From NCBI GenBank assembly GCA_020053475.1, contig JAGVNC010000008.1, positions 1 to 55,030 of the forward strand: 55,030 nt of DNA. Reading direction: 5' to 3'. This stretch comes from Candidatus Omnitrophota bacterium. Its GTDB lineage: Bacteria; Omnitrophota; Gorgyraeia; Zapsychrales; Zapsychraceae. Under the pieces are notes generated by a model. That model worked only from the letters and a program-made list of their open reading frames with translations. It ran no database searches and was not told the DNA's origin. Made by a program: the position numbers and the translations under genes. Numbering within the stretch: position 1 is the first letter of the stretch; every line of letters begins with the position of its first letter. This document shows positions 15,362 to 36,401 of the stretch, piece by piece.

Positions 15362-18300
15362 TTAATATTTTCCCATTAACTCCTGGACAATCCGCAATGT
15401 ATACGCCCATGTTGTATCAAACATCTTATCCCCGCCCTTAGCCATAATCTTTTTTTCGATATCGGCATAGTCTGTCGGGCTGGCTCCCACAGTTTTGGCG
15501 GCCTGCTCGATAAACATGATATCTCCTGTCAAATCATAGGCATATCCAGGGATCGATAAATAATCTTTCCCCGTCACTTTTGTCCCGTCATCATGGGAAT
15601 CAGCTGGGTAATCATAAGTGTCTGGGCAATACATCACTGTTTTGGGAATATTTGCGGTGGCAATCTGGCTCCATGGATACTGTTTGGTGACATTCCAAAG
15701 AGGAGGATTGAATGTGGGATAATAACCCCTTACAAGGACATCCTTCGCTTGATCCGCCCGTACTTCATCAGCCCCGTCATAAACACTTTTTAAAATACCG
15801 GTTAGAGCTATTTTTAACAGATATTCCTCATATTGTTGTGTTCCTTGATGGTTTTCGAGTATTTTACCGGAATTAAATTGACTGCGGAAAAGGCCGGTGC
15901 AGTCAATCTGGGCCAAATCAAAAATATCTGTGTACGCATCAAACCAATAGCGTTTTTTATTGCGCCAATTATCGTCAGCGATGGAATATTGAGTGGCCAT
16001 CGTTAAAGCGACCCAGGCCTCATCTCTATTGAGCAACTCGATTCCTGTCCCAGGATTCGCTGAGGCATTGAGTTTATGCGCCCGCAATGTCTCTGAGGCG
16101 ATGTTGATGCATGTGTTGTCCCATTTTTTCTTAGGGTGAGTGGTATAGGTTAATTCGATATTCTGCGCTTCCATTTCAAATTCATCTTTCGCTATTGGGT
16201 CATTGTTCAAATACACCAGCACCAGAGCGTTTCGTAAATATCTGAACAAATGTTGGTTGTCGATAATTTTAATCGCCTTTAATTCATCATAATAATAAGG
16301 CATCATATCGGCTGGGGGTTCTTCATACCAAGGTTCATCGATCTCTTGAAAACCAAACGGATCGCTTTCATCGAGATTGGTCGGCGTTAATGTGAGAATA
16401 TCATATTCGGCATTCTGATATAATTCAGAAGGATTTTTGGGGCAAGCCATCAGATGTTGTTCTATATCATTTGGATTTCCATATTGATCAACAAAAAATA
16501 CGCGTTGACGGCTGGCATACATTCGAAGAAGCATTTCATACGTTTTTAATCCTTCTTTAGAGCCGGCGTAAGCGGTTCTTAGCCCCTCGGTAATGTGCAT
16601 TTCTTCGCCGCTTGTTTTACCGCCGTAATCGATATTGTATGAATGAGCCCATCCTAAAACAGGATGAACAATATCATCGCCTGACGCGATGCCCAATTTC
16701 AGGGCATTGTAAATCTCATCGTAATCAGCTTTTAAATCAGCTTGAATTTTATTCTTTGAGTCCGTGGGATTAACACCAACCGTGTCATAATTCGGCAAGG
16801 CATGACGTTGCGCGGCGTAGGCGGCCACATTTTTATTCCACCAGGAAAAATATTGATTGCCTTCAGCGTCCTTGGCATCGATGTTAAAGGCCAACCCCTC
16901 GCCTCTTAACAAGGCCTCAGCTTCGGCTTCTTTGCCAATGGGATAGATGGCGTATCGGCGGTGGAATTGCGCCTGTCTGTCCATATAGTGGTTTCCACTG
17001 GTTAAAGGTTTAACGATATAGAAATTATTCGGTTCTGAGGTTAAATAACCCGTATAGGGATCTTCAACATCGGCTTTAATAGCCCAACCAGCGGGGACAT
17101 TTTCAATCCTTAAATATTTAAAGAACATTTCATTAAAAACATCATCTTTAGCTGTTGTTTTATCCATTCCGTTAGAAGCATTGACCACTCTCATGTCCAA
17201 TAAAAGAACATCGGAATCTGTTGACGTTGTGACGTACGCGAAGACTCCTTGTAAATGGCTGTAAGCAGCCATTGTAGGAGATGAAGGTGTCAAGACATCG
17301 TATGTTCTTATGGTCCTGCGAATATCCCCGTTGGTATTCCCGCGCATGATTTTGGAATACCCTTTAAAAATATCGAGGGAATATGAATAAGAAGATTCAA
17401 AATCTTCAGCTTTGATAACAAGGGAGCCCTCTTTGAGAATGTCATTTTTTAAATTGCTGGGAAGATTAGGGGTATTTTTAAGAAATCCGAGGACAGAGGT
17501 GTCCGTCAAATCGCCAAGAGGTGTATAATTCGTCATGACGACGTTGTATTTTAATTTGGCAGCTAGTTCCGATGGATCGCGATGCACCCGCGCGCTGATT
17601 TCAACAACCGAAGCTCCATCGGTACTGTCGGGGAATCGGGTGACGATATCAACCTGGGCCGGGACTACGGTGTCATCATAATCGACAACACCAAAAGGCA
17701 CGGAACCGTCCAGCGTCGGATACAATCCTTTAGGGAGCGGGATGGCCCCATGCAGGATAAATTCATTGGCGATCGGTCTATCCATTTCCATCACCGCGAC
17801 AATGTCGCCGGCTTCTAATGGCTCTTGATTAGAATCTTCCGGAGCATAAACAAGCGTCTCAGCGCTTTCTCCTTTGTCATAGCTGTTCTTTGCAACGATG
17901 GTAACGATTGCCGTTTGGTTTTTCTCTAAAAGAGGTAATGTGACCGGGACAAGATTTCCTATGAAGGGAGTCGGGAGTGTTAAAGGAGTCATATCTCCTT
18001 CCAAATTCATCTGCCCGGATAATTGGCATGGATTGACCGTACAATTATTGATTTGGATATCCATGGTTAACCCATCAATTTCATGAAACTCTGATGGGGC
18101 GATGACACTGGGAATCGGAACAGGCGCTTTAAATAAAACAGTTTTTGTATTGGAAGATTTTCCACTAGTGGTGTCATAAATATACAAATTTGCGTCCGTA
18201 TCATATTCTAAGGAGGGAATCTTGGCGGATAATGTCGTTGAGTTTACATATGTCAACGGTAAATTAAAGGATCCGCTAATGCCGTTGGATGTTATGGTCC

Positions 18301-19897
18301 CTTTTAGCGCATACCCATGAGTGCTGTCGAAGTTTGTTCCTTCAATCGTCATGGGATATAGTCCGCCAGGCCCCATAGGGATGATATTTAAATCAAAAAT
18401 TTGTGGGACGCTTGTCAACTCTGGAGTTGGATAAAAAGGCGTGAAGTTGTTTTTTTCGACTCCGGATGTATTAGAATAAGGGTTTGTGACAACAAACACT
18501 TTGAGTTCGCCGACGACGTCGATAGTTGATAGATCAAGTAATAGTTGTTGGGGATTGATGAATTCAAAAGGCAATACAACTTCCTGATTATTGACTGTTG
18601 TTCCGACGTCCGTTAATCCGTTAGATTTAAAGGCCCCTTGCACGGCGTTAACGGGCATTTTGCTATTTTGGGAATTTAAGTCCCAAGTGCTGGGAATAGA
18701 AATATCTAATTTAGTTTCGGCGGGAACGAGGGCTGCATTTTTGGTGTTCGATTCCGTATACTGTTTCACGATTTTAACAGAGAAATAAACAATGTTATCA
18801 ACGGTGACCGCATCCACCGTCATTTTATCGAATTTGACCTGCATCTTTGTCGGACTGATATAAGTGGACGAAAAATTCAATGGCGCATTTGTTCCATTGG
18901 CATATTCTGCCTCAATCACCACCTGGCTTATCGGGTCAAAGCCGATCCCGTCCAAGTCATAAACATATTTCCCATCGGCTCCGACAGGATTAGTATTCAT
19001 ATCCACGATTTCTGGGGCTAAATGGATGGAGGCAGGGGTTTCTTGACCAATAATAGTGATTTCTTCGCTAAAGTTAGACGGCCCAACATCAGGCACATAG
19101 ACAGCAAGAACCATCTTGATGCTTTCGCTGGAAGCGGATAAAGGAATTTTAATGTGTTCGGGATCGACAAAGACATAGGCCTGATTGTTAAGTGTCAATG
19201 GAGTTTTATCCCCGTTGGGATGAATGATATCTCCGGCAATCGTCATATTGTTTGTAAAATTTTTCCCTGTTAACACCAGTTCAGTCACCCCTAAATTAAA
19301 ATTAAGCGGGTTGGGTTCAACCGCCGTGATTTGCGGGAGAGGAACAATGTATTTAGAAAAAAATACGGGGAAGGGGATAGAAGCAAGTTTGTCATCGGGA
19401 TTATAAACGATAAATTGGGCTGTAAAATCAACATCCGCTTTCGCCCCTTCGAAATGAACAATGATTGTTTGATCATTAATGATATCAAATGCAGGATATT
19501 CAAGAATTTTCTCTTCACTTCCCGATATGTCCGTTACAATGACATAAAGTTTGTTCCCAAGGCTAAAGTTCTCTCCGCTAAGCGTTAATTGCTGGCAAGT
19601 AAATAATGCACAAGGATTAGGTGTTGCGGCAGTGATCTTGGGGTTAGCCGCATCCCCGGTCGTCACTTTGCTTTGGTTGCTTGGAGGGAGACTTTTAACG
19701 ACGGTTCCTTGGCTGAATAGAGCAGAGGGTTGAATAACATCGGATTTAGAAATAATTTTACGGCTTATTTTCCCACTCAGCTGTGTGGAGGAGGAAACAT
19801 TGTTTCTAGCGAAAGCAAAAGAGGCATTGAGAAGAAGAAAACAACTTACGATGAAATAGATAAGAAAGAAATGTCTCGTTTTTAAAGGTGTAAGCAT
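15362..19897 (-). CDS. Giant exported TIG/Ig-like protein with lyase-like C-terminal region, paralogue A
   Basis: 1511 residues from ATG 19897, which has GGAGGGG five bases upstream; the frame stays open 222 bases further, but that part is the terminator and riboswitch. Signal peptide 1-30 (cleavage near FAFA-RN). TIG/IPT modules lie at about 86-180 (C96/C101 pair), 187-284 and 295-395, with further Ig-like modules to about 710. Residues about 715-830 (PLPKGLYP, PFGVVDYD, VPAQVD) recall the N-terminal domain of YetA/PcRGLX-type rhamnogalacturonan lyases. The last 500 residues are mostly helical with conserved tracts (GGKTSGEEMHITEGLRTAYAG, MYASRQ, MPYYYD) and may be a toroid of the kind seen in polysaccharide lyases; this is a tentative fold guess. 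Paralogue at 20781. Controlled by a c-di-GMP riboswitch. Confidence 0.85.
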   Translation of the reverse strand: MLTPLKTRHFFLIYFIVSCFLLLNASFAFARNNVSSSTQLSGKISRKIISKSDVIQPSALFSQGTVVKSLPPSNQSKVTTGDAANPKITAATPNPCALFTCQQLTLSGENFSLGNKLYVIVTDISGSEEKILEYPAFDIINDQTIIVHFEGAKADVDFTAQFIVYNPDDKLASIPFPVFFSKYIVPLPQITAVEPNPLNFNLGVTELVLTGKNFTNNMTIAGDIIHPNGDKTPLTLNNQAYVFVDPEHIKIPLSASSESIKMVLAVYVPDVGPSNFSEEITIIGQETPASIHLAPEIVDMNTNPVGADGKYVYDLDGIGFDPISQVVIEAEYANGTNAPLNFSSTYISPTKMQVKFDKMTVDAVTVDNIVYFSVKIVKQYTESNTKNAALVPAETKLDISIPSTWDLNSQNSKMPVNAVQGAFKSNGLTDVGTTVNNQEVVLPFEFINPQQLLLDLSTIDVVGELKVFVVTNPYSNTSGVEKNNFTPFYPTPELTSVPQIFDLNIIPMGPGGLYPMTIEGTNFDSTHGYALKGTITSNGISGSFNLPLTYVNSTTLSAKIPSLEYDTDANLYIYDTTSGKSSNTKTVLFKAPVPIPSVIAPSEFHEIDGLTMDIQINNCTVNPCQLSGQMNLEGDMTPLTLPTPFIGNLVPVTLPLLEKNQTAIVTIVAKNSYDKGESAETLVYAPEDSNQEPLEAGDIVAVMEMDRPIANEFILHGAIPLPKGLYPTLDGSVPFGVVDYDDTVVPAQVDIVTRFPDSTDGASVVEISARVHRDPSELAAKLKYNVVMTNYTPLGDLTDTSVLGFLKNTPNLPSNLKNDILKEGSLVIKAEDFESSYSYSLDIFKGYSKIMRGNTNGDIRRTIRTYDVLTPSSPTMAAYSHLQGVFAYVTTSTDSDVLLLDMRVVNASNGMDKTTAKDDVFNEMFFKYLRIENVPAGWAIKADVEDPYTGYLTSEPNNFYIVKPLTSGNHYMDRQAQFHRRYAIYPIGKEAEAEALLRGEGLAFNIDAKDAEGNQYFSWWNKNVAAYAAQRHALPNYDTVGVNPTDSKNKIQADLKADYDEIYNALKLGIASGDDIVHPVLGWAHSYNIDYGGKTSGEEMHITEGLRTAYAGSKEGLKTYEMLLRMYASRQRVFFVDQYGNPNDIEQHLMACPKNPSELYQNAEYDILTLTPTNLDESDPFGFQEIDEPWYEEPPADMMPYYYDELKAIKIIDNQHLFRYLRNALVLVYLNNDPIAKDEFEMEAQNIELTYTTHPKKKWDNTCINIASETLRAHKLNASANPGTGIELLNRDEAWVALTMATQYSIADDNWRNKKRYWFDAYTDIFDLAQIDCTGLFRSQFNSGKILENHQGTQQYEEYLLKIALTGILKSVYDGADEVRADQAKDVLVRGYYPTFNPPLWNVTKQYPWSQIATANIPKTVMYCPDTYDYPADSHDDGTKVTGKDYLSIPGYAYDLTGDIMFIEQAAKTVGASPTDYADIEKKIMAKGGDKMFDTTWAYTLRIVQELMGKY

Positions 19898-19926: not shown

Positions 19927-19957
19927 AAAAAAACCTATTCGGCCAGCGAATAGGTTT
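19927..19957 (-). terminator. Riboswitch-linked intrinsic terminator
   Basis: On the minus strand AAACCTATTCG (19957-19947) pairs perfectly with CGAATAGGTTT (19941-19931) and runs into a T-run (19933-19927). It lies 12 bases after the riboswitch aptamer and 29 bases before the start codon, the position of an expression platform that acts by premature termination. Confidence 0.9.
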
Positions 19958-19969
19958 AGAGTCAGAAAA

Positions 19970-20066
19970 CCATCGGCAGCTGGCTACCCTGTATCCGTCA
20001 AGAACGGATGAGGGTCCTATAGCTTTGCGCCCTACTCTTACGAGCAGTTTGCCTTTATCAACGGTG
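19970..20066 (-). promoter_or_regulatory. Cyclic-di-GMP-I (GEMM-I) riboswitch A
   Basis: Read on the minus strand, the P1 arm CCGTTG (from 20064) pairs with CGATGG at the end; GGCAAAC, then a stem-loop, GGGCGCAAAGC, a second stem, a hairpin and GGGTAGCCAGCTGCCGATGG follow in the order and spacing of the GEMM-I consensus (GGCAAACC, GGGACGCAAAGCC, GGUAGC-GGUUACCG). The tetraloop-receptor and ligand-pocket elements are recognisable. The class binds c-di-GMP (established knowledge). It is followed by a terminator and then the giant gene A. Confidence 0.93.
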
Positions 20067-20113: not shown

Positions 20114-20152
20114 AAACAAGATGTCAAAGGCCGTTTTGAGAAAACGGTTCCT

Positions 20153-20527: not shown

Positions 20528-20723
20528 AAAACTGTAGACGTGATTTTATCGGTCAGTCTGAATGGTATTAAATAAATGTCTATCGAGTTTTTTATTGCTC
20601 ACTAATGTGATGCTGAAAGTATAATCTATAATTGACATAATGCAAGGGCTGGGGGGAGGCAAAATTTTATACAATTGTTATCCAGTGGTAAGCCATTAGG
20701 ATTTAATGAGTTATCGTGAAGAA

Positions 20724-20780: not shown

Positions 20781-23700
20781 TTAGGGGAATAACCCATTAA
20801 CTTCTTGAACGACACGCAAAAAATATTGTTCATTATTTTCATTTTCGGATTTACTTTGCATTTTAGACATCAAGGATTCATAATTCCCCACAGTGGTCCC
20901 ATAGGCTTGCGCGGCTTTGTTTAAGTAGTCAATGTCATACGTTACTTTATACCCATTGGCCAGAGCGGTCCCTAAATCACATGTTCCGCACTCTCCGGCG
21001 AATGACCCGGAAGGATAATCAAACGTATCAGGGCAATAGGCCACTGTTTGCTCAATGTCCCCTGTGGCAATGATATTATTAGGCTCTTCTTTCACAACAT
21101 TCCAAATAGGAACAGTGATGATCGTTTGATATAGTTGATTGACCATTTCTTTAATTTGAGATACCCTTACAGGATCTAGGCCGTCAAAGACATTTTCGAT
21201 TGCGCCTTCGTATGAATTCGTGTCGATCAAGGCTTCGTACTTCTGTGCAGCCCGATGATTGGTGAGTAATTTGCCGGTATTGTAGGTAGATTGCAAAAAT
21301 CCAGTACACGGAATGTGAGCGGTATTAGACAAATCGGCTAAATTTTCAAACCAATATTTCTTATTGGCTCGCCATTGCTCATCACCAGAAGCATAAGCGG
21401 AATTCATGATATTAAGCATATGCCCATGGGCACGGCCATAGCCATCAAGCCCTATCCCAGGATTTGCGTTAGCTTCTCCGATAAAATCAAGCATACTTCC
21501 GGAGATAGGAGCGCAAACATATCCTTTTCCGGCTTGCCATTTTTCTCCAGGATAGACCGGGAATGATAATTCGACATTTTGAGCATCGAGCAAAATTCCA
21601 TCTTTGGCCATCGGATCATTTCTTAACCAAAGGAGGACATACAAACTTCGTACGGCTCGTATTCTGTGTTGATAATCGATAATATCCACTGCATTAATAT
21701 TGTCGTAATAATAAGGTAATAGATTATTGTCTATCACATATTGTGTTTGATCGATGGATCCTGTCCCAAAACCCCAAATATTTCCGGATTTTGCAACATC
21801 CATGGGAACACCGTTTGCCCAGCTAAAAGCAACTTTTTGTTCAGTTTTAGCACTATCATTAGGGCAAGCCTTTAATAGCTGGCTCACATCGACTTGGCTT
21901 CCGTCATTGTTAAACAAAGCGATGGCCTGACGGCTGGCATACATGCGTTCGATGAGATTATAGAGTAAAATCCCTTTTCTAGACCCGGCATAAGCCGTGT
22001 GAAGCCCATCGGTAATAAATATTTCGTTTCCGCCTGTCATCCCGCCATATTCAACTCCATAAGATTGGGCCCAGCCCATCACACCTTTGGAAACAGGATA
22101 ATCGCAGACTTGTTGTGGAACTCCATCAACTGTTACTGTCTTTTTTGAACAAGATCCCGTTGTGACCAAATTTAGCAAATAGCTATAATCACCCGCTAAT
22201 TTTGACTCCACAGCTGCTCTGGCCTTAATAGGATCGGACCCGGCCCCTTTGAAATCCAAACTGGCTAAAGGATCTCTTTGCGGGAAATAGTTTCCGGTAG
22301 ATTCATTCCACCAAGACCAAAGTTGCTGGCCATTTTGATCTTTGGCATCGATGACAGCACCCCAACCTTCGAGGTCCAATTGGGCCTTGGCTTCGGCGTC
22401 TTTTCCCAGATAAGCAAGCGCAATACGGCGATGGAATTGGGATCGAGGAGGCATATAGTTCATACTTCCCGGGACTTCTTTAACAAGTTCGTGATAAACA
22501 TCGCTTCCGGCCAAAGTCCCACCGGTAGCCGTATAAGGATCGGTAACATCGGATAATCTTACCCATCCCACAGGAATAACTATTTTCAGGGTTTTAAAAA
22601 ACATATTGTCGATGGCGTCATCTTTCGGGTCGGTTTTATCTAACCCGTTCATCGCATTACTGATGATCAAATCTAGCAAGACGACATTGGAATTAGCCTG
22701 AGTGGTGACATACGCATGGACACCCATTAAATGCGACAATGTGCCTGGATAGGCGGATGTCATGACGTCAAATGTCTTTACGGTTCTTTTAACATCTCCA
22801 TTATCACCGCCGCGCATAATTTTAGAAGAGCCTGTCAAAAGATCCATTGTATAAGGGTTTCCTTTTGCATCTTGGGCCTGCATGGTCAGCTTGCCTGGCT
22901 TTAAAAGATCTTTAATATTTGGGAGAAGCCCAGGAAGATTGGTTAAAAAGGCAATAGTCTCTTTATTCGAGACATCGCCCACGGCTGAATGAGGAGCAAC
23001 AACAACAGAATATTGAAGCCGTGTATTGGGGGCTACAGGATTTTTAATATGAACCCGAGCATTGAGTTCAACAACCGCTGCGCCGTCCGTAGCAAAACTA
23101 GGATACTTCGTGACTGTATCCACTTGCGCCGGAACAGCACTTCCATCGGCATCAAGGAATCCAAAAGGAATCAATCCATCAGCGGCGGGGAATACGCCCT
23201 TGGGAACAGGCATCGTCGCATTAAGCGTAAATGTTCCATCGGCCGCCGTAACGGTCGGCTTATCAATTTCAATGATAGCGACAACATCACCGGCTTCAAG
23301 AGGTTCTTGATCAGGATCTTCCGGAGCATAAACAAGCGTCTCAGCGCTTCCTCCTTTGTCATAACTGTTCTTCGCAACAATGGTAACGGTTGCCGTCTGG
23401 TTTTTTCCTAAAAGAGGCAATGTGACCGGGACAAGATTTCCTGTGAAAGGAGCAGGGAGTGCTAAGGGAGTCATATCCCCCCCCAAATTCATCTGCCCGG
23501 ATAATTGGCATGGATTGACCGTACAGTTATTGATTTGAACATCCATGATCAACCCGTCTTTCTGATAAAATGTTGCCGGAGCATTGACACTCGGTGTGGG
23601 GATAACAGCTTTAAATAAAGTTGTCTTCGTGTTTGATGATTTTCCTGTTGTCGTATCCTGAACATACAAGTTTGCATTGATGTCATCCTGGAGTTCAGGG

Positions 23701-25925
23701 ATTTTAGCAATCAATGTTGTCAGGTTGTTGTAGGTTATAGGTAAATTGAAGGAACCTGTGACGCCGTTGGACGTCATCGTTCCTTTGAGCGCATAACTGT
23801 GCGAACTTAAGAAGTTAGTTCCTTCGATCACCATCACATATAATCCATCCGATCCGGCTTGAGCGAGGTTAAGATCAAAGACAGCCGGCACGCTGGTGAT
23901 GGCCGGTGCCGGATAATTGGGCGTAATATTGATCGTCCATATAGACGACAATTTATTCCAGGGAAGGTTTTGAATAAAGAATTTTAAGGTCGTTATGGCT
24001 GTTATGTCTAAAGGTAAATCGATCGTTAATTGTGTTGGGCTGAGAATCCCGACTGGATAATCGACGGTTTGATTGTTGGCAGTCATTTTTACTTGAGTTT
24101 TACCGTCAAGTTTAAATCCCGTGCCATAAACCGTTAGATTGTTGGGCTGCGTGTTGAGGTCCCAGCTGGTCGGCGTCGAAGAGCTGATCGTCGGTTTATT
24201 TTCAAAGGGCAACAACGTGGTATTCATTTCATTCGATGTTTTGGCGTAAGGCTCAAGATTGACGACATGATAAATAAGCGAATAGATATCCGCGGTACTG
24301 ATCGCATCGACTTGGATCTCCGGGGTTAAAATGTGCAATTCTTTATCGCTAACAAATTGAGAGGTGTAATTAAGTGCCACATTTATCCCGTTAGCGGTCG
24401 CTTGAAGGACAACTTGACTATCTGAGTTAAACCCCGTCCCGTTGAGCACTAGATGAAAATCATTCCCTATCTTTGTTGCGACGTTCTGATCCAGGACTTC
24501 ATCGGCGGAAGTGATCGTCGGTGCCGGTTCAAACCCGATAACATCTAATTGTGCTTCATTGGAAAACTTGTTGTAGGGTTCGTTCTCAACGTGGAATGTA
24601 TAGGTTTTGCTTTCATTCATTTGAGGGATTTTGATCACAAGAGTGTTCCCATTAATTTCATAAGCTAATTCCATGCCGACAACTTTGCTGCTGGGTTTTA
24701 ATCCAGCCGTTTCCAGGGAGACAGAATACAGCCCATTGGCATCGGCATCAACCAGGTTCTGATCAAGTGTCGTTTGGCTTGATAAAATTTCAGGAGATGG
24801 TTCAAAGGCAACGACGCTTAATTGGGCCTCGTTAGAGATTTTGTTATAGGGCTCGTTTTCAACATGGAATGTGTATGTTTGATTTTCATTGAATAGAGGG
24901 ACGTTGATCGTAACCGTGTCTCCATTAATGTCATAAGAGAAATCCAATCCAATGATTTTACTTGTCGGTTTTAAACCAGAGGCGTTGACCGAGACAATGT
25001 AAAAACCATTTGCATCCGGACTGACAAGATTTTGATCAAGCATCAGTTCAGAAGATAAAAGAACAGGGGCCGGCTCGATCCCAATGACATCAACCACTGT
25101 TGAATTTGATTGGCCGGCGACGGGATCATTGAAGACAAAAGAAATTTTGCTGTTTTCTTCGGAAGGCAGGGTGAGCATATCAAGAGGAACATTCACATGC
25201 TGAGCGTCGATGTATTGATAGGTTGCGGGGTCAAGGCTCAATGCCGTTTCGCCTCCATCCATGTGAATAATTTTGCCGATCAGCGTCATGTTATTCGTGA
25301 AATTATCCCCGGTGATGGTTAGTTGAGAAACTTCTAAATTAAGATCAACGGGGTTAGGCTCCACGACGTTGATGATCGGATCGGGAGGATCATATTTTAA
25401 GAAGTTAACCTTAACAGAGTTGGAAGCAAGCTTTAATAATGGATCATGAACAACAAATTCTGCTGAAAAATCAGTGTTGATGTTGCTTCCATCAAAATTA
25501 ACGACGATTGTTTGATCATTGATCACTTCAAAAAAAGGATAAGAAATGATCTGTTTATGGCCATCTGTAGGATCGGTGACGATGACATAAAGTTTGTCCT
25601 CTGCATTAAAATTGTTTCCACTGATCGTTAATTGGTGGCAATCATACAGAGAACAAGGATCGGGGCTGATTGAGGTGATTTGCGGTTTCGGAGCATCGGC
25701 CGCTTTAGCATTGTTCTGATTATCTTCAGGGATGGCATTGACAAGCGTTCCTTGAATAAGGGCTAGGTCTGTTTTAGTCCCTTGAATTTTGGTGAAGAAT
25801 TTACCTTGATATAATTTGGGTGAACTCTCCCCGGCGAAAACTAAGGAATGATTAAACAGGAATAATGACGTCAGAAGAACAACAATAAAAAATCGTTTAG
25901 AATAAAAAAAATGAGTCGCGCACAT
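20781..25925 (-). CDS. Giant exported TIG/Ig-like protein with lyase-like C-terminal region, paralogue B
   Basis: 1714 residues, AAGGGGGAG before ATG 25925. Signal peptide 1-31 (FIVVLLTSLFLF core). Opening TIG/IPT module about 80-175 with C91/C96, a second at about 180-280, then two nearly identical 90-residue modules (LDQNLV...YTFHVENEPYNKxSNEAQL) at about 285-465, further modules to about 860, a YetA/PcRGLX-like segment (PVPKGVFPAADGLIPFGFLDADGSAVPAQVD) at about 905-940 and a C-terminal helical region like paralogue A (GGMTGGNEIFITDGLHTAYAGS, MYASRQ, LPYYYD). It has about ten cysteines in the second half, unlike most proteins here, as expected for an extracytoplasmic protein. Catalysis is not proven. 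Preceded by c-di-GMP riboswitch B. Confidence 0.85.
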   Translation of the reverse strand: MCATHFFYSKRFFIVVLLTSLFLFNHSLVFAGESSPKLYQGKFFTKIQGTKTDLALIQGTLVNAIPEDNQNNAKAADAPKPQITSISPDPCSLYDCHQLTISGNNFNAEDKLYVIVTDPTDGHKQIISYPFFEVINDQTIVVNFDGSNINTDFSAEFVVHDPLLKLASNSVKVNFLKYDPPDPIINVVEPNPVDLNLEVSQLTITGDNFTNNMTLIGKIIHMDGGETALSLDPATYQYIDAQHVNVPLDMLTLPSEENSKISFVFNDPVAGQSNSTVVDVIGIEPAPVLLSSELMLDQNLVSPDANGFYIVSVNASGLKPTSKIIGLDFSYDINGDTVTINVPLFNENQTYTFHVENEPYNKISNEAQLSVVAFEPSPEILSSQTTLDQNLVDADANGLYSVSLETAGLKPSSKVVGMELAYEINGNTLVIKIPQMNESKTYTFHVENEPYNKFSNEAQLDVIGFEPAPTITSADEVLDQNVATKIGNDFHLVLNGTGFNSDSQVVLQATANGINVALNYTSQFVSDKELHILTPEIQVDAISTADIYSLIYHVVNLEPYAKTSNEMNTTLLPFENKPTISSSTPTSWDLNTQPNNLTVYGTGFKLDGKTQVKMTANNQTVDYPVGILSPTQLTIDLPLDITAITTLKFFIQNLPWNKLSSIWTINITPNYPAPAITSVPAVFDLNLAQAGSDGLYVMVIEGTNFLSSHSYALKGTMTSNGVTGSFNLPITYNNLTTLIAKIPELQDDINANLYVQDTTTGKSSNTKTTLFKAVIPTPSVNAPATFYQKDGLIMDVQINNCTVNPCQLSGQMNLGGDMTPLALPAPFTGNLVPVTLPLLGKNQTATVTIVAKNSYDKGGSAETLVYAPEDPDQEPLEAGDVVAIIEIDKPTVTAADGTFTLNATMPVPKGVFPAADGLIPFGFLDADGSAVPAQVDTVTKYPSFATDGAAVVELNARVHIKNPVAPNTRLQYSVVVAPHSAVGDVSNKETIAFLTNLPGLLPNIKDLLKPGKLTMQAQDAKGNPYTMDLLTGSSKIMRGGDNGDVKRTVKTFDVMTSAYPGTLSHLMGVHAYVTTQANSNVVLLDLIISNAMNGLDKTDPKDDAIDNMFFKTLKIVIPVGWVRLSDVTDPYTATGGTLAGSDVYHELVKEVPGSMNYMPPRSQFHRRIALAYLGKDAEAKAQLDLEGWGAVIDAKDQNGQQLWSWWNESTGNYFPQRDPLASLDFKGAGSDPIKARAAVESKLAGDYSYLLNLVTTGSCSKKTVTVDGVPQQVCDYPVSKGVMGWAQSYGVEYGGMTGGNEIFITDGLHTAYAGSRKGILLYNLIERMYASRQAIALFNNDGSQVDVSQLLKACPNDSAKTEQKVAFSWANGVPMDVAKSGNIWGFGTGSIDQTQYVIDNNLLPYYYDNINAVDIIDYQHRIRAVRSLYVLLWLRNDPMAKDGILLDAQNVELSFPVYPGEKWQAGKGYVCAPISGSMLDFIGEANANPGIGLDGYGRAHGHMLNIMNSAYASGDEQWRANKKYWFENLADLSNTAHIPCTGFLQSTYNTGKLLTNHRAAQKYEALIDTNSYEGAIENVFDGLDPVRVSQIKEMVNQLYQTIITVPIWNVVKEEPNNIIATGDIEQTVAYCPDTFDYPSGSFAGECGTCDLGTALANGYKVTYDIDYLNKAAQAYGTTVGNYESLMSKMQSKSENENNEQYFLRVVQEVNGLFP
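24530..25075 (-). repeat. Tandem Ig-like module duplication inside giant gene B
   Basis: Two consecutive units of about 270 bp encode modules sharing YTFHVENEPYNK, SNEAQL, LDQNLV and ANG-Y-VS. The similarity extends to the DNA level, so the duplication is fairly recent. Confidence 0.7.
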
Positions 25926-25995
25926 GGCTTCTCCCCCTTGACCATACGTCTGACAAAAGGCCTATTTAAGTTGCAAATAAGTCTGTGTTAGACGA

Positions 25996-26091
25996 CCATT
26001 GGTAACTGGCAACCCTTGATCTGTAACGCAGATCGGAGGGCCCTTTAGCTTTGCGTCCCGCTCTTTCGAACGGTTTGCCCTGTATCAATAG
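25996..26091 (-). promoter_or_regulatory. Cyclic-di-GMP-I (GEMM-I) riboswitch B
   Basis: On the minus strand P1 CTATTG (26091-26086) pairs with CAATGG (26001-25996). Between them are CAGGGCAAACC, a loop with CGAAAG (a GNRA tetraloop), GCGGGACGCAAAGC, a hairpin built on GATCTGCG/CAGATC, and GGGTTGCCAGTTACC. This matches the GEMM-I consensus even better than riboswitch A. The 70 bases to the start codon hold only a weak AU-rich hairpin (CTTATTT/AAATAGG, about 25977-25957) followed by CCTTTTG, so the output could be weak termination or translational. Confidence 0.93.
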
Positions 26092-26218
26092 TTTCGTGTT
26101 TCTTCGCTGATGAAATATCCCAAGGGATACTGTTCAGCCAGGTGGATACGCTAATGTGGGTGGAACGGATCGTTTGGCAGCCTGAAAGAAAGGCTGTTGG
26201 ATAACTGCAGGAATGTCC

Positions 26219-26262
26219 GTTACAAAAAAAATAACTCACGCACATAGTTTTTCCCCTTTAAC
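26219..26262 (-). pseudogene. Second copy of the giant gene B translation start, upstream of the riboswitch
   Basis: On the minus strand GTTAAAGGGGAAAAACT then ATGTGCGTGAGTTATTTTTTTT nearly matches the true start (GTCAAGGGGGAGAAGCC then ATGTGCGCGACTCATTTTTTTT) base for base, about 80 % over 40 bases. The ATG at 26245 opens a frame of 66 codons (MCVSYFFCNGHS...) that runs into the riboswitch and has no signal-peptide core. It is either a remnant of an older gene start separated by the inserted riboswitch, or a leader frame. Confidence 0.6.
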
Positions 26263-26287
26263 TCTTTGTGCGGTGAGTTCTACAGCA

Positions 26288-26296
26288 AGTATAACA
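26288..26296 (-). promoter_or_regulatory. Extended -10 promoter candidate upstream of riboswitch B
   Basis: On the minus strand TGTTATACT (TATACT at 26293-26288). A transcript from about 26281 would carry the leader start at 26245 and then riboswitch B. No clear -35 box. Confidence 0.4.
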
Positions 26297-26487: not shown

Positions 26488-28182
26488 ATGATTATAAAAT
26501 CAAAATTTCCCCTAGGGCAGCTTTTAATTGAGCGAAAAATTATTACGCCGGAGCAATTGGACGTGGCGTTAAAACGCCAAAAAGAAACGGGCGAGTTATT
26601 AGGGATTGTTTTGTTAGAATTAGGTTTTGTGGATGAAGAAACCGTGTTTTTACCCATTGTGGCGGGGCAGTATGGGGTTGATTATGTCAATTTAAAGGAT
26701 GCTCAAATCCCTCCCGAAGTCTTGAATCAGCTTCCGGCCCGGTTTGCCAGCCATTATAAAGTCATTCCTGTCGATTATCGAGAAAATACACTCATGATTG
26801 CCACCACCCGGCCGTTAGATATTCACTTATTGGATGAACTTTCGTTGGTTGTTAAAGCTAAACTCAATCCAGTGTTGGCTTCGGAAAAAGATATTTTGGA
26901 AGCGATCCGTAAATATTATGGGGTGGGTGCTGAAACCATTGAGCAGATGATGGGTTCCGTCAAATCGCTTGATCTCCCGGAAGACGTGGACGACTTAGGC
27001 GCGATGGAAACGGAAGCGTCGATCAGCAAATTTTTAAATCAGATATTGCTGGAGGCTTACCGTGATCGGGCGACTGACATTCATATTGAACCCTTTGAAG
27101 ATAGCCTGCACGTTCGCTACCGCGTTGACGGGATATTGTTCGATGCGAAGGTCCCTAAAAATATTCGGCATTTTAAAGATTCGATTATTTCACGCATTAA
27201 GATACTTTCCAATTTAAACATTGCCGAGAAAAGAACGCCGCAAGACGGCCGGTTTAAGGTGCACGTCGGCGAAATTGATCTTGACCTGCGCGTCTCGTTC
27301 CTGCCAACCCCGTTTGGGGAAAGTGTGGTGTTAAGAATCCTCAATTCAACGCGGCTTTTTAGTTTTGCCGAATTGGGTTTGGATGACCAAGAGCGAAAGA
27401 TTCTCGAGCATTTAATCGAGAATCCCCACGGCATTATTTTTTTGACCGGTCCGACGGGGAGCGGAAAAACAACGACATTATATTCCTGCCTGTCCCAAAT
27501 CAATACGGAAGATACAAAAATCATCACCATTGAAGATCCGATCGAGTATCAGCTCGAGGGCATCACCCAGATTCAAATCAATCCGGCGGTCGGGTTGACG
27601 TTTTCCACGGGGTTGCGTTCGATGCTGCGCCATGATCCCGACGTCATGATGGTCGGAGAAGTCCGGGATATCGAAACGGCTGAAATCGCTATCCAGGTCG
27701 CGCTGACCGGGCACTTGATATTTTCCACCCTACACACCAACGACGCGGCCAGCGCTGTGACACGATTGTTGGATATGGGGGTTGACCCTTATCTGGTTAC
27801 GAGTACCGTTGAATGTTTTATCGCCCAACGGTTGGTGCGAACATTATGCCCCAAATGTAAAAGTCCAACCACATTAACCTCAGCGATGGCCGAGGATTTT
27901 AAGCGTCACGTCGATATGACGGGTGACATTAAGATTTATGAGCCTAAGGGCTGTGAAGCGTGTAAATTTACCGGCTACTTAGGGCGCGCGGCCATTTATG
28001 AATTCCTTGTCGTGAATGAGGCGATTCGAAAAATTATTATGGAAAAAGCCACAGCCTCAACGATCAAAAGTAAGGCCGTCGCCCAAGGGATGAGAACGCT
28101 CATGCAGTCCGGATGGGAAAAAGTCCGTCGAGGCCTGACCACGCCTCAAGAAGTTTTACGGGTTACGAAGGAAGAGGATTGA
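26488..28182 (+). CDS. gspE: Type II secretion ATPase GspE (PilB/MshE type)
   Basis: 564 residues. Hexameric cytoplasmic ATPase that drives pseudopilus assembly. N-terminal MshEN-like domain (8-70, PLGQLLIERKIITPEQLDVAL...LGIVLLELGFVDEETV) in two repeats; in MshE such repeats bind c-di-GMP, but here the first RLG is PLG and the GxxG-type glycine is Lys17. Walker A GPTGSGKTT at 321-329, Asp box and HDPDVMMVGEVRDIETAEIA (Walker B), His box HLIFSTLHTNDAASA, and zinc CxxC pairs near 454 (CPKC) and 488 (CEAC). Ribosome site unusually far upstream (AAAGGAAAG). First gene of the cluster. Confidence 0.93.
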   Translation: MIIKSKFPLGQLLIERKIITPEQLDVALKRQKETGELLGIVLLELGFVDEETVFLPIVAGQYGVDYVNLKDAQIPPEVLNQLPARFASHYKVIPVDYRENTLMIATTRPLDIHLLDELSLVVKAKLNPVLASEKDILEAIRKYYGVGAETIEQMMGSVKSLDLPEDVDDLGAMETEASISKFLNQILLEAYRDRATDIHIEPFEDSLHVRYRVDGILFDAKVPKNIRHFKDSIISRIKILSNLNIAEKRTPQDGRFKVHVGEIDLDLRVSFLPTPFGESVVLRILNSTRLFSFAELGLDDQERKILEHLIENPHGIIFLTGPTGSGKTTTLYSCLSQINTEDTKIITIEDPIEYQLEGITQIQINPAVGLTFSTGLRSMLRHDPDVMMVGEVRDIETAEIAIQVALTGHLIFSTLHTNDAASAVTRLLDMGVDPYLVTSTVECFIAQRLVRTLCPKCKSPTTLTSAMAEDFKRHVDMTGDIKIYEPKGCEACKFTGYLGRAAIYEFLVVNEAIRKIIMEKATASTIKSKAVAQGMRTLMQSGWEKVRRGLTTPQEVLRVTKEED

Positions 28183-28187
28183 TTTAA

Positions 28188-28300
28188 GGGTTGTGGGGGG
28201 TAGGGTTTAGAGGCGAGTAGGGTCTTATGTCTAAGGTTTTTGGACTTTTAACCATTGCCTTATAACTATACCCGCTTCCAACCCTTACACCCAAAGACTT
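28188..28300. repeat. G-rich/C-rich imperfect inverted repeat between gspE and gspF
   Basis: The G-rich arm (about 28188-28222, GGGTTGTGGGGGGTAGGG) is imperfectly complementary to the C-rich arm (about 28268-28299, ACCCGCTTCCAACCCTTACACCC). It interrupts an otherwise tight operon and resembles the elements at 2069 and 11981. Confidence 0.4.
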
Positions 28301-28307
28301 TAATAAC

Positions 28308-29537
28308 ATGCCTAAATTCGCTTACAAAGCTAAAGAAGGTCCACACAAAATCGTTGAGGGGTTGATTGAAGCCTCCGATAAGGATATGGCTGTCAGCAGA
28401 ATTATTGCCTCAGGCGTGACCCCAATCGAGATTACATTTGCCACGCAAGCGGAAGAGAAGCGCCGAGAGAAAATAACGACGAAAGTTCGGCGCTGGTCCA
28501 ACAAGGTTACGTTAAAAGATTTAGTTATTTTTACCCGGCAACTGACGGATTTAGTCGAGGCCTCGGTTCCGATTTTACGTTCTTTAAAAATTATTAGCGA
28601 GCAGACAGAAAGCCCCTTGTTGAAAACAATTGTCGAGGATATGCACCAATTGGTCAAGGACGGCGGATCGTTTTCCGATGCGTTGGCTAAGTATCCGGAG
28701 ATTTTTTCCCGTTTATATGTCAGTCTGGTGAGAACAGGTGAATTGTCGGGCCGATTGGAAGAAGTCCTCGTCCGGCTTGCTTCTTACCTTGAGAAAGAAC
28801 AAGAAACGCTCAATAAAGTCACGTCCAGCTTGGTTTATCCGTTATTTATTTTGGGTGTGGGCATTATTTCGGTGTTTGTTTTGCTAACGTTTGTGGTCCC
28901 CCGGATTACCGTCATGTTTGCCGATCTGGATCAGGCACTGCCGCTTCCGACACTTATTTTGGTAAGCCTCAGTAATGTCTTGGCTAAATATTGGTGGCTC
29001 GTTGTTTTATTGGTTGGAATTTTAGTGATGTATACACGCAGTTGGCTTTTGACAGCGCAAGGCCGTCGCAAATTTGACACTTGGCGCCTCAAATTGCCGT
29101 ACATCGGGGAATTTTTACGGGTTGTGGAAGTGGGGCGTTTTGCACGCACGCTGGGGACATTGGTCGAAAGCGGCGTTCCCATTGCGTCAGCATTGACGTC
29201 GGTCGCCACAACATTGGACAACGTGAATTTTCGTGAGGAAATCGAACGGATGACGGAAGAAGTGAAGCAAGGAGGGAGCTTGCGCACATCACTCAAAAAA
29301 TCCCAATTTTTCCCGGACATGGCCGTCAATATGATCTCCGTCGGGGAAGAAACGGGACGGTTGGAAAGAGGCCTTTACAAAATCGCTGATATTTTCGAGC
29401 GCCAGGCTGATCAGACTGTCAAAACCATTGTGGCCCTTTTAGGCCCTGTTGTGTTGGTGTTGATTATTCTGGTCATTGGGTCTATGGTTGTGGCATTGAT
29501 GCTGCCTATTTTTAAAATGAATTTATTGATTCAGTAG
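28308..29537 (+). CDS. gspF: Type II secretion inner-membrane platform protein GspF
   Basis: 409 residues, usual length. It forms the membrane platform with which GspE interacts. Two T2SF domains are visible: the first with FTRQLTDLVEASVPILRSLKII...GGSFSDALAKYPEIFSRLYVSLVRTGELSGRLEEVLVRLA (about 80-165), the second with FARTLGTLVESGVPIASALT...GGSLRTSLKKSQFFPDMAVNMISVGEETGRLERGL (about 280-360). Three membrane segments: about 176-198, 225-245 and 380-402. Separated from gspE by the inverted repeat above. Confidence 0.95.
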   Translation: MPKFAYKAKEGPHKIVEGLIEASDKDMAVSRIIASGVTPIEITFATQAEEKRREKITTKVRRWSNKVTLKDLVIFTRQLTDLVEASVPILRSLKIISEQTESPLLKTIVEDMHQLVKDGGSFSDALAKYPEIFSRLYVSLVRTGELSGRLEEVLVRLASYLEKEQETLNKVTSSLVYPLFILGVGIISVFVLLTFVVPRITVMFADLDQALPLPTLILVSLSNVLAKYWWLVVLLVGILVMYTRSWLLTAQGRRKFDTWRLKLPYIGEFLRVVEVGRFARTLGTLVESGVPIASALTSVATTLDNVNFREEIERMTEEVKQGGSLRTSLKKSQFFPDMAVNMISVGEETGRLERGLYKIADIFERQADQTVKTIVALLGPVVLVLIILVIGSMVVALMLPIFKMNLLIQ

Positions 29538-29556
29538 AGACATGAAAGGAGTTTTT

Positions 29557-29988
29557 ATGAGACAATTTAACGCAAGAGCTTTTACCCTCATTGAAATCAT
29601 TTTGGTGATGACGATTATTGGGATCATTGCTGCTTTGGTTATTCCCAATGTCGCCGGCCGTGGTCAAGAGGCCCGCGTTTCGGCGGCGAGTGTTGATGTC
29701 GAGTCCAATATCCCGGCGGCACTGGATTTGTACGAATTGGATAACGGGCAATACCCAACCACAGAACAAGGATTGGCGGCCCTTCTTCAGGCACCGACGA
29801 CATCGCCTGTCCCCGGCCACTGGAATGGGCCATATCTTAAAAAGAAAAAAGTCCCTGTTGATCCTTGGGGCCAGCCATACGGGTACACATCTCCCGGGAT
29901 TCATAACACCGAGGAATTTGATTTGTTTTCTTATGGCCTTGACGGAGTAGAAAGCAGTGACGATATTGTTAATTGGCTTGTGGAGTAA
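29557..29988 (+). CDS. gspG: Major pseudopilin GspG
   Basis: 143 residues. Prepilin-like N terminus MRQFNARA|FTLIEIILVMTIIGIIAALVIP, then the GspG C-terminal pattern: ALDLYELDNGQYPTTEQGLAAL, WNGPYLKKKKVPVDPWGQPY, and FDLFSYGLDGVESSDDIVNW with its calcium-site acidic residues. The start ATG 29557 follows AAAGGAG; an ATG at 29542 lies inside the ribosome site region. The residue before the cleavage point is Ala8, not the near-universal Gly. It should be the main subunit of the pseudopilus. Confidence 0.95.
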   Translation: MRQFNARAFTLIEIILVMTIIGIIAALVIPNVAGRGQEARVSAASVDVESNIPAALDLYELDNGQYPTTEQGLAALLQAPTTSPVPGHWNGPYLKKKKVPVDPWGQPYGYTSPGIHNTEEFDLFSYGLDGVESSDDIVNWLVE

Positions 29989-30007
29989 AAATATTTTTGT
30001 CCACCAG

Positions 30008-30520
30008 ATGCGATTCCCCGAGTCTACCGTTCAAAAGATTGGTTCCCGGGGATTCACGCTCATTGAGATTATTTTAGTATTGGTCATCCTGGGCGTGATC
30101 GCTGGCCTAACCGTTCCGCGCATCGGTCAAAATTTTATTGAGCTGCAGTTAAAACGCACGGCGAATGATCTATCTTATCTGATGCGTTATGCGCAAAGCC
30201 GGGCGATTACAAAAAACCGTATGGTTCGTCTGGAATTCGATGATAATTTTTCCAAGGTTTGGTTGACCCAATCCACCGAAGAAGCCTCCCCCGAGGAAGA
30301 CAATAAAAGTTTTGAACGCATCACCGGACGATTAGGGCGAACGCTCACGGTCCCGGACAAAATTTATCTGGAGGCAGAGACCGTGCCGGTCCAGTTTTAT
30401 CCCGATGGGAGCATGGATCGCGTCCGTCTGTATGTTTGTCATGAAAAAGATTGCTTGACGGTCTCGACCCAGGAACAGAGGGGAGCTGTCCGCGTTTTTG
30501 ATTATAAATTGGCATCATGA
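30008..30520 (+). CDS. gspH: Minor pseudopilin GspH
   Basis: 170 residues from ATG 30008; an upstream ATG at 29957 inside gspG is less likely. Type III signal SRG|FTLIEIILVLVILGVIAGLTVPRI with Gly15 and Glu at +5, followed by LKRTANDLSYLMRYAQSRAITKNRMVRLEFD, the normal GspH/FimT N-domain. The C-terminal part is beta-rich, with VQFYPDGSMDRVRLYVCHEKDCL. Starts just after gspG and overlaps gspI by four bases (ATGA). Confidence 0.88.
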   Translation: MRFPESTVQKIGSRGFTLIEIILVLVILGVIAGLTVPRIGQNFIELQLKRTANDLSYLMRYAQSRAITKNRMVRLEFDDNFSKVWLTQSTEEASPEEDNKSFERITGRLGRTLTVPDKIYLEAETVPVQFYPDGSMDRVRLYVCHEKDCLTVSTQEQRGAVRVFDYKLAS

Positions 30521-30906
30521 CCATTTGTTCGATTAACAATAACCGTGGTTCGTTCCTCCTAGAAGCCTTACTATCGATTGTGATTCTTTCTGTAAGCTTG
30601 ACGCTGATGATCCAGTCGATGACTGCCGGCTTGCGGGCCATTCATTACACCTCCGATTACACGATCGCCCAGATATTATTAGATAACAAGCTTCAAGAAC
30701 TGATCCAAAAAGGCTCAACGGATGCCGGACAAAATAAAACAGAATCCTTCGAAGCGCCTTTCGACCGCTACGAGTATTCGTTAATGACCACAAGTTCTGA
30801 TTTAAGCGAAGCGCTAGTCAATGTCCGGGCGGATATTTCCTGGATGAGCGGAAAAAGAAAAAACAATATCTCTGCGCAGACATATCTTTTTGTTCCAACA
30901 CTATGA
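30517..30906 (+). CDS. gspI: Minor pseudopilin GspI
   Basis: 129 residues. Prepilin motif NNRG|SFLLEALLSIVILSVSLTLMIQSMTAGLRA with the +5 Glu, then a short beta domain; length and the LLEALxAxxIL core are typical for GspI, part of the tip complex with GspJ and GspK. It overlaps gspH and gspJ by ATGA, showing translational coupling. Confidence 0.85.
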   Translation: MTICSINNNRGSFLLEALLSIVILSVSLTLMIQSMTAGLRAIHYTSDYTIAQILLDNKLQELIQKGSTDAGQNKTESFEAPFDRYEYSLMTTSSDLSEALVNVRADISWMSGKRKNNISAQTYLFVPTL

Positions 30907-31634
30907 CATTTAATAAAAAAGAATTTCGGGGCTTCACGCTGATTGAGTTGATATTGGGCCTGAGTATTTTTGCCTTGGTCGCGTTGAATGTTTATAGCAT
31001 CTATACTGGGGGAATCCGCTTAAGTCGTCGAGCTGACACCCAGAATACGATGTTTCGCGAGGCGCGCATGGCGTTGGATTTGATGGCGTTTGATTTGGAG
31101 AATATGATCCCTTATGATTTTTCTAATTCCTATCCGCAGCAAACGGCTTTTCGGGGAGAAGAAAATAAAATTACGTTCTTAATGGCCACTTCCGACGGGC
31201 TTAATGTGGTCAGTTACTTTTTGGTTGTGCCTGAAAAGGTCAGTATTCACCGTGTCATCATCGGCAAAAGGACATCGAAAAACGTACGTATTTCCAACGT
31301 CACCCAGCAAGGACTGCGCCTGGAATCGCTGGTCCGCAAAGAACAATCGTTGATTTCCTACCTGAATGGCGAAAACAATGAAAGCTTGACCGAATTAATT
31401 GCAGTGAATGTGAAAGAAGGCAGTTTGAAATTTTCTTTTGCTTATCTGAAGGATGAAGAGAGCCAAGAGGCCATTTGGAAGGATGCCTGGGGCCTCAATT
31501 ATATTCCTTCCCGTATTCGTCTTAAGATTGATTTTGTTAATCCATCTGATCTTAATACGATTCCATTTACTAAAGAAATTCTTGTCCCCCATGGATTCTG
31601 GGGCGCAGATGAGTCAGGGGCTTCATCGGCATGA
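30903..31634 (+). CDS. gspJ: Minor pseudopilin GspJ
   Basis: 243 residues. KEFRG|FTLIELILGLSIFALVALNVYSIY with cleavage after Gly10 and a +5 Glu; then RRADTQNTMFREARMALDLMAFDLENM, the usual GspJ helix, and a beta-rich globular part (FRGEENKITFLMATSDGL) ending with ...RLKIDFV. Part of the GspI-J-K tip. ATGA overlaps on both sides. Confidence 0.9.
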   Translation: MTFNKKEFRGFTLIELILGLSIFALVALNVYSIYTGGIRLSRRADTQNTMFREARMALDLMAFDLENMIPYDFSNSYPQQTAFRGEENKITFLMATSDGLNVVSYFLVVPEKVSIHRVIIGKRTSKNVRISNVTQQGLRLESLVRKEQSLISYLNGENNESLTELIAVNVKEGSLKFSFAYLKDEESQEAIWKDAWGLNYIPSRIRLKIDFVNPSDLNTIPFTKEILVPHGFWGADESGASSA

Positions 31635-32758
31635 AATATTTTAACGAGCGCCATCTGAGAAGATTGTCGGCTAAAAAATCCCGATTGACGCGTTCCTTCA
31701 ATAATAATTCTGGTATAATACTTTTGGTCGTTCTTTGGACAATGGTTGTTTTGACGACGTTAGCGATCAGTTTAGGCCGTCAAACGCATGTTGAGTTGAC
31801 GTTGGCCAAGCATGCGATTGGAAAGTTAAAGTCAAAATATTTAGCGTGGGCGGGTGTGATTAGCGCCATTGACCAGATCCGCCAAGATGGGGAAGATGCA
31901 GCATCCGCAGAAAAGGATACGTTATACTACTGCGGCATCCCAATCAAAGAAAGCCCTTCGCCTCAAGATTTGTTTGAAAAGGTTGAATTAGAAGATGGGA
32001 CATATAGCGTTCAATATGTTCCCGAAGGGGAAGGGATTTCTAAAGGGACGGTTTATTACGGATTACAGGACGAAGAGCGGCGTTTGAACCTGAATGGATT
32101 AACCAACGAGAACAAAGATATCTTGATCGCGCTTCTGGCGTTGTTGGGGCACGACGAAGACACAGCCAAAACCATTGCGTTGGCGATCATTGATTGGAGA
32201 GATGAAGATAGTATGTCAACGGACAGCATCGAGAGTACTGAGGATGATTATTACACTGGCCTTTCGAATTCATACCATTGCAAGAATCATCCGTTGGATA
32301 CCACAGAAGAATTATTATTAATCAAAGGCGTGACGCCACAGATTTATAAGGATATGGCACCGTTTGTCACTGTATTTCCTAAAACGGGAGAATTTCAGGT
32401 CAACTTCGACACGGCTTCCGAGACGATCCTGAAAGCGTTAACGCATTCTGTCGCTGGTCCAGCCACCGGGACAGAAGTCGCTGATGCCGATTCGTTAGTA
32501 GAGAAAATGTTGACGTATCGCGCCGGGGGAGATGGGCTGGAATTTACCCCAGATGATCAAAGCATTGATATTAACCAATTTAACGTCAATGCGAAAGAGC
32601 GAGTTTTGTTTTTAGTCATTAATCAATTTCGAGCGAATAGTTCTCAGTATTTAGCCGCCGACGTGGTTGGGATTGACAAACAGCGAGGGGCCCGCACCCA
32701 CGTCCAGGCGATTATCCAGAGGGAAGATCTTTCCATCGTGTCTTGGAGACGTCAGTAG
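31631..32758 (+). CDS. gspK: Minor pseudopilin GspK
   Basis: 375 residues. Long basic leader, then NNNSG|IILLVVLWTMVVLTTLAISLGRQTHVE; the VLW motif and lack of a +5 Glu are characteristic of GspK, which caps the pseudopilus. The saposin-like helical insert is recognisable around LLALLGHDEDTAKTIALAIIDWRDEDS and TTEELLLIKGVTPQIYKDMAPFVTVFP. Acidic residues typical for calcium binding are present (DWRDED). Ends one base before gspL. Confidence 0.93.
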   Translation: MKYFNERHLRRLSAKKSRLTRSFNNNSGIILLVVLWTMVVLTTLAISLGRQTHVELTLAKHAIGKLKSKYLAWAGVISAIDQIRQDGEDAASAEKDTLYYCGIPIKESPSPQDLFEKVELEDGTYSVQYVPEGEGISKGTVYYGLQDEERRLNLNGLTNENKDILIALLALLGHDEDTAKTIALAIIDWRDEDSMSTDSIESTEDDYYTGLSNSYHCKNHPLDTTEELLLIKGVTPQIYKDMAPFVTVFPKTGEFQVNFDTASETILKALTHSVAGPATGTEVADADSLVEKMLTYRAGGDGLEFTPDDQSIDINQFNVNAKERVLFLVINQFRANSSQYLAADVVGIDKQRGARTHVQAIIQREDLSIVSWRRQ

Positions 32759-32759
32759 A

Positions 32760-34226: not shown

Positions 34227-34756
34227 TTCGACGGCTGACAAAACGTGAGCAATATATTTTTTATATCTGTTTGCTCTTCATTGGAATTTTTATTTTTTAT
34301 CAAGGGCTGATCAAGCCTTCGTGGGAAGAGTCGGAGTCGTTAGATCAAAAGATCGTCATCCAGCAGCGTCGGCTACAAAAAGATCAACGGCTGCTCCAAG
34401 AAGCGAAGGGAAAAGAGAAAGCCCACGCGGCCTATTTACTGGCCTATAAACAAAATGGGACCGATGAGCAAGTCATGTCATCGATCCTTTCTCAAATCGA
34501 GAAATTGGCTGGCGAACTAAAGTTGCGCATTTCGGATCTTAAGCCACAACGCGTCAAACAGCTTGAATTATTGAATCAGTTTTCCGTCAGCGTCACCATC
34601 GATAGTGAATTTGACGATATTTTGAATTTTTTGTATCTTTTGCAACAAGAGCCTTATTCATTTAATGTTGAAGAAGTCCGTTTTGATAAAGGCACTCGCC
34701 GCAACGAGACGATCATCAAATCCCAGCTTGTTTTAAGTAAGGTTCTCATCCCTTAG
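34223..34756 (+). CDS. gspM: GspM/PilO-like inner-membrane protein
   Basis: 177 residues, ATGA overlap with gspL. Short cytoplasmic start, one membrane segment (12-31, YIFYICLLFIGIFIFYQGLI), a coiled coil (about 40-95) and a small ferredoxin-like domain (ILSQIEKLAGELKLRISDLKPQ ... FDDILNFLYLLQQEPYSFNVEEVRF). This is the GspM/PilO layout; it dimerises with GspL. It closes the first block; an A/T-rich hairpin (34764-34788) and a new promoter follow. Confidence 0.8.
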   Translation: MIRRLTKREQYIFYICLLFIGIFIFYQGLIKPSWEESESLDQKIVIQQRRLQKDQRLLQEAKGKEKAHAAYLLAYKQNGTDEQVMSSILSQIEKLAGELKLRISDLKPQRVKQLELLNQFSVSVTIDSEFDDILNFLYLLQQEPYSFNVEEVRFDKGTRRNETIIKSQLVLSKVLIP

Positions 34757-34800
34757 GAGCCTTTTTTCTATTAAAAATAGAAAAATATTCTTAATAGTTA

Positions 34801-34829
34801 TTGACACCCCTGTAGGGCTATACGAAAAT
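34801..34829 (+). promoter_or_regulatory. Promoter candidate before the exeA-like gene
   Basis: TTGACA (34801-34806), 17 bp, GAAAAT (34824-34829). The second half of the secretion cluster could thus be expressed separately. Confidence 0.45.
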
Positions 34830-34890
34830 AATACTAACTCTCTGAGTAGAGAGTCATATCAATGTGGGCAAATAAGTCTTTTTGAGGATC

Positions 34891-35715: not shown

Positions 35716-35762
35716 CAATTAAATTTTTTTTATCGCATCAATGGATGTTATGACGGGTGTTC

Positions 35763-36374: not shown

Positions 36375-36401
36375 TGAAAATCGGGAGAACATCGAGGATT
36401 T

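Follow-up and report, generated by a model that had tools for sequence, protein, structure and literature searches.

A c-di-GMP-I aptamer with a weakened terminator hairpin ahead of a TIG-domain gene in a Candidatus Omnitrophota bacterium

Two paralogous genes and their riboswitch leaders

The DNA analysed here (the window) is a stretch of 55,030 nucleotides that constitutes one whole contig (JAGVNC010000008.1) of the 2.03 Mb draft genome of a Candidatus Omnitrophota bacterium. Two paralogous genes lie on its minus strand, each preceded by a riboswitch leader, and these leaders, referred to as switches A and B, hold the only riboswitches in the window. Gene B (20781-25925, minus strand) is an open frame of 1714 residues with a signal-peptide-like start and a TIG domain (PF01833, 27.4 bits, above the cut-off). 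Gene A (15362-19897, minus strand) is taken to start at the ATG at 19897, which replaces the TTG at 20119 given in a mechanical list of open reading frames; counted from this ATG, its product is 46% identical to that of gene B. No relatives of the two proteins were found among solved structures, and searches for homologues of gene B, run against 55 family and order genomes and against the genome_contigs set, returned none.

A third TIG-domain relative is encoded on the minus strand at 7152-5593 (519 aa from the ATG at 7152) and is 41% identical to the gene B product over 110 residues. It has a strong match to the promoter matrix at 7229 (minus strand, score 17.0) but no aptamer. Divergent from gene B, a type II secretion cluster occupies positions 26488-37907 of the plus strand and encodes GspE with an MshEN domain, pseudopilins, GspK and a secretin. 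The MshEN domain binds c-di-GMP in some proteins, and c-di-GMP control may be common to the secretion ATPase and the giant secreted proteins. The genome encodes five GGDEF domains, which indicates that the messenger can be made.

Aptamer B is on the same strand as gene B, 72 nt ahead of the ATG of this 1714-residue TIG-domain gene. The c-di-GMP-I covariance model (RF01051, gathering score 35) matches the minus strand at 26089-25998 over its full length (model positions 1-87) with 64.2 bits, the E-value being 2.6e-10 in a cmscan of the window and 2.3e-12 in a search of the whole genome. An earlier note, made from the sequence alone, had placed a GEMM-I aptamer at 26091-25996 of this strand and had proposed the RF01051 search as a check; the prediction passes that search with bounds that are off by at most 2 bases, and the GEMM-I motifs that the note quoted are found in the sequence. 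Including the full P1, the aptamer extends over 25995-26092, with ACUAUUG (26092-26086) pairing with CAAUGGU (26001-25995). The P1, P2 and P3 helices and the GAAA loop are all present, the latter being a candidate for the GNRA tetraloop that in this class sits on P2 and docks into a P3 receptor. In Vc2 the ligand is contacted by G20, A47 and C92 (PMC4744006). Inspection of the sequence assigns these to G26079, A26052 and C26002 of aptamer B, and a motif check of all the aptamers in hand agreed on the equivalents of G20 and C92. In the c-GAMP-selective GEMM-I variant an A replaces the G at position 20, and this variant was ruled out for aptamer B since position 20 is a G (G26079). The c-di-GMP-I-GGC variant was also ruled out because aptamer B scores 52.6 bits against RF03167, below the gathering score of 59. 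By these sequence criteria aptamer B is a genuine and ordinary c-di-GMP-I (GEMM-I) aptamer within the putative leader of gene B, and it is predicted to bind c-di-GMP.

Origin of the leaders and riboswitch use among relatives

The sister aptamer of switch A (19971-20062, minus strand), some six kilobases from aptamer B, scores 62.3 bits with RF01051 and 59.4 bits with RF03167. In an alignment of 119 nt that takes in the aptamer and the first part of the terminator, the two leaders share 73% identity, and the remaining upstream regions of A and B do not align. This resemblance shows that both leaders descend from one ancestral riboswitch leader. Every pair of P1, P2 and P3a in switch A is still paired in B and none is broken, with seven changed pairs made up of six one-sided changes and one two-sided change; P1 of aptamer B, which has seven pairs, accounts for three of the one-sided changes. 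Since the pairs have been kept despite the seven changes, the aptamer appears to have stayed under selection, and both copies have evidently been maintained since the duplication.

The bacterial family makes heavy use of c-di-GMP-I switches, and aptamer B itself is routine. The genome has 10 c-di-GMP-I matches (eight above the cut-off), and all 55 genomes searched, comprising this genome and others of the family and order, carry at least two such aptamers each, so that a second switch in the window is unsurprising in itself. At three loci in relatives (L125 of genome G025, L153 of G039 and L163 of G004) two c-di-GMP-I aptamers lie near each other and are probable tandem switches. A strong terminator accompanies 73 of the 92 aptamers surveyed in this genome and its relatives, at a median distance of 29 nt, and aptamer B is among the 19 that have none, as is one other aptamer in its own genome. 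In several relatives that lack such a free-standing terminator, which is the commoner form, the terminator is by eye made from the aptamer's own 3' strand (loci L129, L141, L123, L165 and L177). A terminator of that kind would be blocked on ligand binding, which is an ON arrangement, and both signs of control are therefore likely to occur in the family.

Expression platforms and promoters

The intact terminator of switch A (19931-19957, minus strand; -12.0 kcal/mol) is followed by UUUUAUU and was also picked up by a simple terminator scan. Its antiterminator is composed of GCCAGC/GCUGGC plus GGUUU/AAACC. When the folded transcript was ended in the terminator loop, the antiterminator (-39.2 kcal/mol) was preferred over P1 (-36.6 kcal/mol), and when the terminator was complete, P1 together with the terminator won (-47.8 kcal/mol). 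This predicted succession of folds, a terminator with a competing antiterminator, suggests the anatomy of an OFF switch. The antiterminator duplex of switch A taken alone is no better than shuffled sequences (z of -0.28; the mean over 73 switches is -0.64 +/- 0.15). Aptamer A is a marginal candidate for an anti-SD, in that 4% of shuffles pair equally well with the ribosome site.

In switch B, a degenerate hairpin (AGACUUAUUUGCAACUUAAAUAGGCCU; 25958-25984, minus strand) aligns with the switch A terminator. Its stability is -3.5 kcal/mol, versus -12.0 kcal/mol in A, its U tract is shortened to UUUUG, and it ranked as weak in the terminator survey, all of which demonstrates a loss of terminator strength in B. 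The earlier note had seen here only a weak AU hairpin without a real T-run and a platform unlike that of switch A, and the folding energies bear out both observations; it had missed that the hairpin is a homologue of the switch A terminator, that a rod encloses it, and that the proximal promoter is weak or missing. No strong intrinsic terminator was found downstream of aptamer B, where the best candidate reaches -5.0 kcal/mol and has a weak U tract. A run of eight U residues inside the start of gene B was considered as a terminator tail and rejected, as the sole preceding stem (-6.7 kcal/mol) stops three bases early. Of the 11 base pairs in the switch A terminator, 10 can still form in B, including two in which both partners have changed, but these compensatory changes were rejected as proof of a working terminator because random transitions keep 10 of the 11 pairs 24% of the time. 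When the switch B transcript was ended in the terminator loop, P1 (-36.3 kcal/mol) was preferred over the antiterminator (-30.9 kcal/mol) by 5.4 kcal/mol. With an eroded terminator and a non-competitive antiterminator, switch B is predicted to have lost both elements of a strong terminator switch and would be unable to act as one. The platform of switch B has diverged and is probably weakened.

The rod CGUCUaACA...UGUcAGACG (25947-25994, minus strand; -12.4 kcal/mol) surrounds the weak hairpin and directly adjoins the 3' strand of P1. A possible hairpin that would sequester the ribosome site, in which CCUUUUG (25960-25954) pairs with CAAGGGGG (25940-25933), spans 25933-25960 of the minus strand with a predicted stability of -7.6 kcal/mol when folded alone. 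The sequestering hairpin and the rod are mutually exclusive, and the whole linker of B folds to -17.4 kcal/mol with the former and -17.3 kcal/mol with the latter. The earlier note had supposed that the two genes might respond to c-di-GMP with different output or sign, and had proposed folding the linker with and without the bound aptamer. Enforcing the aptamer produced almost no predicted ligand-dependent change at the ribosome site of B, the computed accessibility being 0.08 against 0.10 at +25, and aptamer B was rejected as an anti-SD since 17.5% of shuffles pair with the ribosome site as well as it does. Accordingly, the platforms do differ as supposed, but a difference in sign is supported neither way.

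The leaders also differ in their promoters. A TATACTT element with at most one mismatch is found upstream of 72 of 90 aptamers in relatives, at a median of 21 nt, and in 12 of 90 control stretches. Switch A has this element at 20097, with a matrix score of 16.7 on a scale in which the 10th percentile of the training set is 16.3 and eight sites on both strands of the window score at least 10. The best match in the window to this riboswitch-gene promoter matrix, at 20623 (minus strand, score 21.6), lies about 560 nt ahead of aptamer A with no convincing gene between. For aptamer B the usual aptamer-proximal promoter is missing or weak, and the nearest family-type -10 element (TGTTATACTT; 26287-26293, minus strand), some 200 nt upstream, scores 12.7. 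Transcription of gene B from a start downstream of 25996 would, according to the earlier note, have told against its proposal, and the matrix scan found no family-type promoter scoring well in that part of the linker.

A terminator-like hairpin, AACUCACcGCACA...UGUGCGUGAGUU (26224-26279, minus strand; -15.3 kcal/mol), opens at the transcription start (+1) predicted for the 26293 promoter and is followed by an A and eight U residues. Its loop and 3' arm carry an ATG (26245) along with an SD-like sequence, and a reading frame extends from this ATG into aptamer B. The 3' half of the hairpin repeats the start of gene B in diverged form, agreeing with it at 31 of 39 bases, and this suggests a rearrangement that brought the riboswitch segment and the gene start next to an older start. 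No further copies of the hairpin were found in the genome. Much of the transcription from 26293 might stop ahead of aptamer B, and the hairpin could be a scar of the rearrangement or give rise to a short RNA, some 60 nt long.

Possible action of switch B and comparison with known riboswitches

We favor the view, with a probability of roughly two in three, that aptamer B is genuine and shares its origin with aptamer A, that its terminator has eroded, and that gene B escapes strong termination by c-di-GMP. A gene duplication would have carried one ancestral riboswitch leader to both genes. In switch A, bound c-di-GMP would hold P1 and thereby prevent the antiterminator, allowing the terminator to form and transcription to stop (OFF). 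In switch B, the aptamer would have been conserved while the terminator hairpin and its U tract eroded and the antiterminator ceased to be competitive, releasing gene B from strong c-di-GMP termination. Any residual control of gene B is probably weak and post-transcriptional. P1 may stack on the adjoining rod, whose formation would compete with that of the CCUUUUG/CAAGGGG hairpin at the ribosome site, and c-di-GMP would then, if anything, raise translation of gene B via the rod. Such a weak translational ON effect is speculative and, on balance, doubtful. The outputs of A and B are likely to differ in strength, with a change of sign as a possibility.

An alternative, somewhat unlikely in our estimation, is that the weak hairpin of B continues to terminate a fraction of transcripts in the c-di-GMP-bound state, so that B has the same sign as A over a smaller range. 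The ten surviving pairs, with their two-sided changes, would fit such residual termination, as would the potential pairing GGGUUGC/GCAACUU, which resembles an antiterminator. The low stability of the hairpin and its UUUUG tail count against this reading, and the 5.4 kcal/mol by which the pairing falls short of P1 leaves little to switch between. We consider it unlikely that the platform is vestigial, with aptamer B binding c-di-GMP to no effect and gene B being controlled by the upstream promoter and terminator-like hairpin. The absence of an aptamer-proximal promoter and the position of the U8-tailed hairpin directly after the nearest one, at 26293, are consistent with this idea, and a published c-di-GMP-I riboswitch, Bc1 of Bacillus thuringiensis, binds its ligand with no visible change in gene expression (PMC11218506); conservation of the aptamer since the duplication, however, implies that it is used.

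It is also conceivable, though rather improbable, that the sign is reversed, with c-di-GMP turning B on and A off, such that the messenger would replace either giant secreted protein by its paralogue. In B, P1 directly abuts the rod and can coexist with it, and formation of the rod precludes the hairpin that would cover the ribosome site. Both signs are apparent among relatives, including the several in which the aptamer's own 3' strand is the terminator's 5' arm. Moreover, the near-identical aptamers of Cd1 from C. difficile (OFF) and pilM from G. metallireducens (a c-GAMP riboswitch, ON) serve either sign, which is decided by their platforms (PMC9262584), and Vc1 is an ON switch with no visible terminator or anti-SD (PMC4744006, PMC11218506). 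Against a reversal stands the predicted accessibility of the ribosome site, which shows no robust change between bound and free states. The most elaborate version, in which tandem paralogues have opposite outputs, c-di-GMP turning A off at transcription and B on at translation, we regard as distinctly improbable.

Returning to the reading we favor, the A/B pair constitutes a natural experiment, in that the same leader is present before and after terminator loss in one genome, with a type II secretion cluster as neighbor. Should the outputs prove to be different, the pair would afford a direct view of duplicated riboswitch-controlled genes diverging in their response to a single signal.

Comparison with characterized riboswitches places the two leaders more precisely. 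Aptamer A just reaches the cut-off of the c-di-GMP-I-GGC variant (59.4 versus 59), whereas aptamer B stays below it. Bc1 is like B in having a long leader with terminator elements and ligand binding that is not simply coupled to output; the two terminators of Bc1, however, are downstream of the aptamer, whereas the strong terminator-like hairpin of B is upstream. Cd1 resembles switch A, as its terminator is compatible with the aptamer and its antiterminator competes with it, while B has neither this arrangement nor that of pilM, and A and B differ from both in being two paralogues within one genome. Like the Vibrio cholerae riboswitches Vc2 and Vc1, aptamer B has a full-length covariance match, the G20/A47/C92 bases and a GNRA tetraloop, and like Vc1 it has no obvious terminator or anti-SD between aptamer and gene. 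What sets B apart from the V. cholerae switches is that its ancestral leader had a terminator, which is still visible in the sister copy A.
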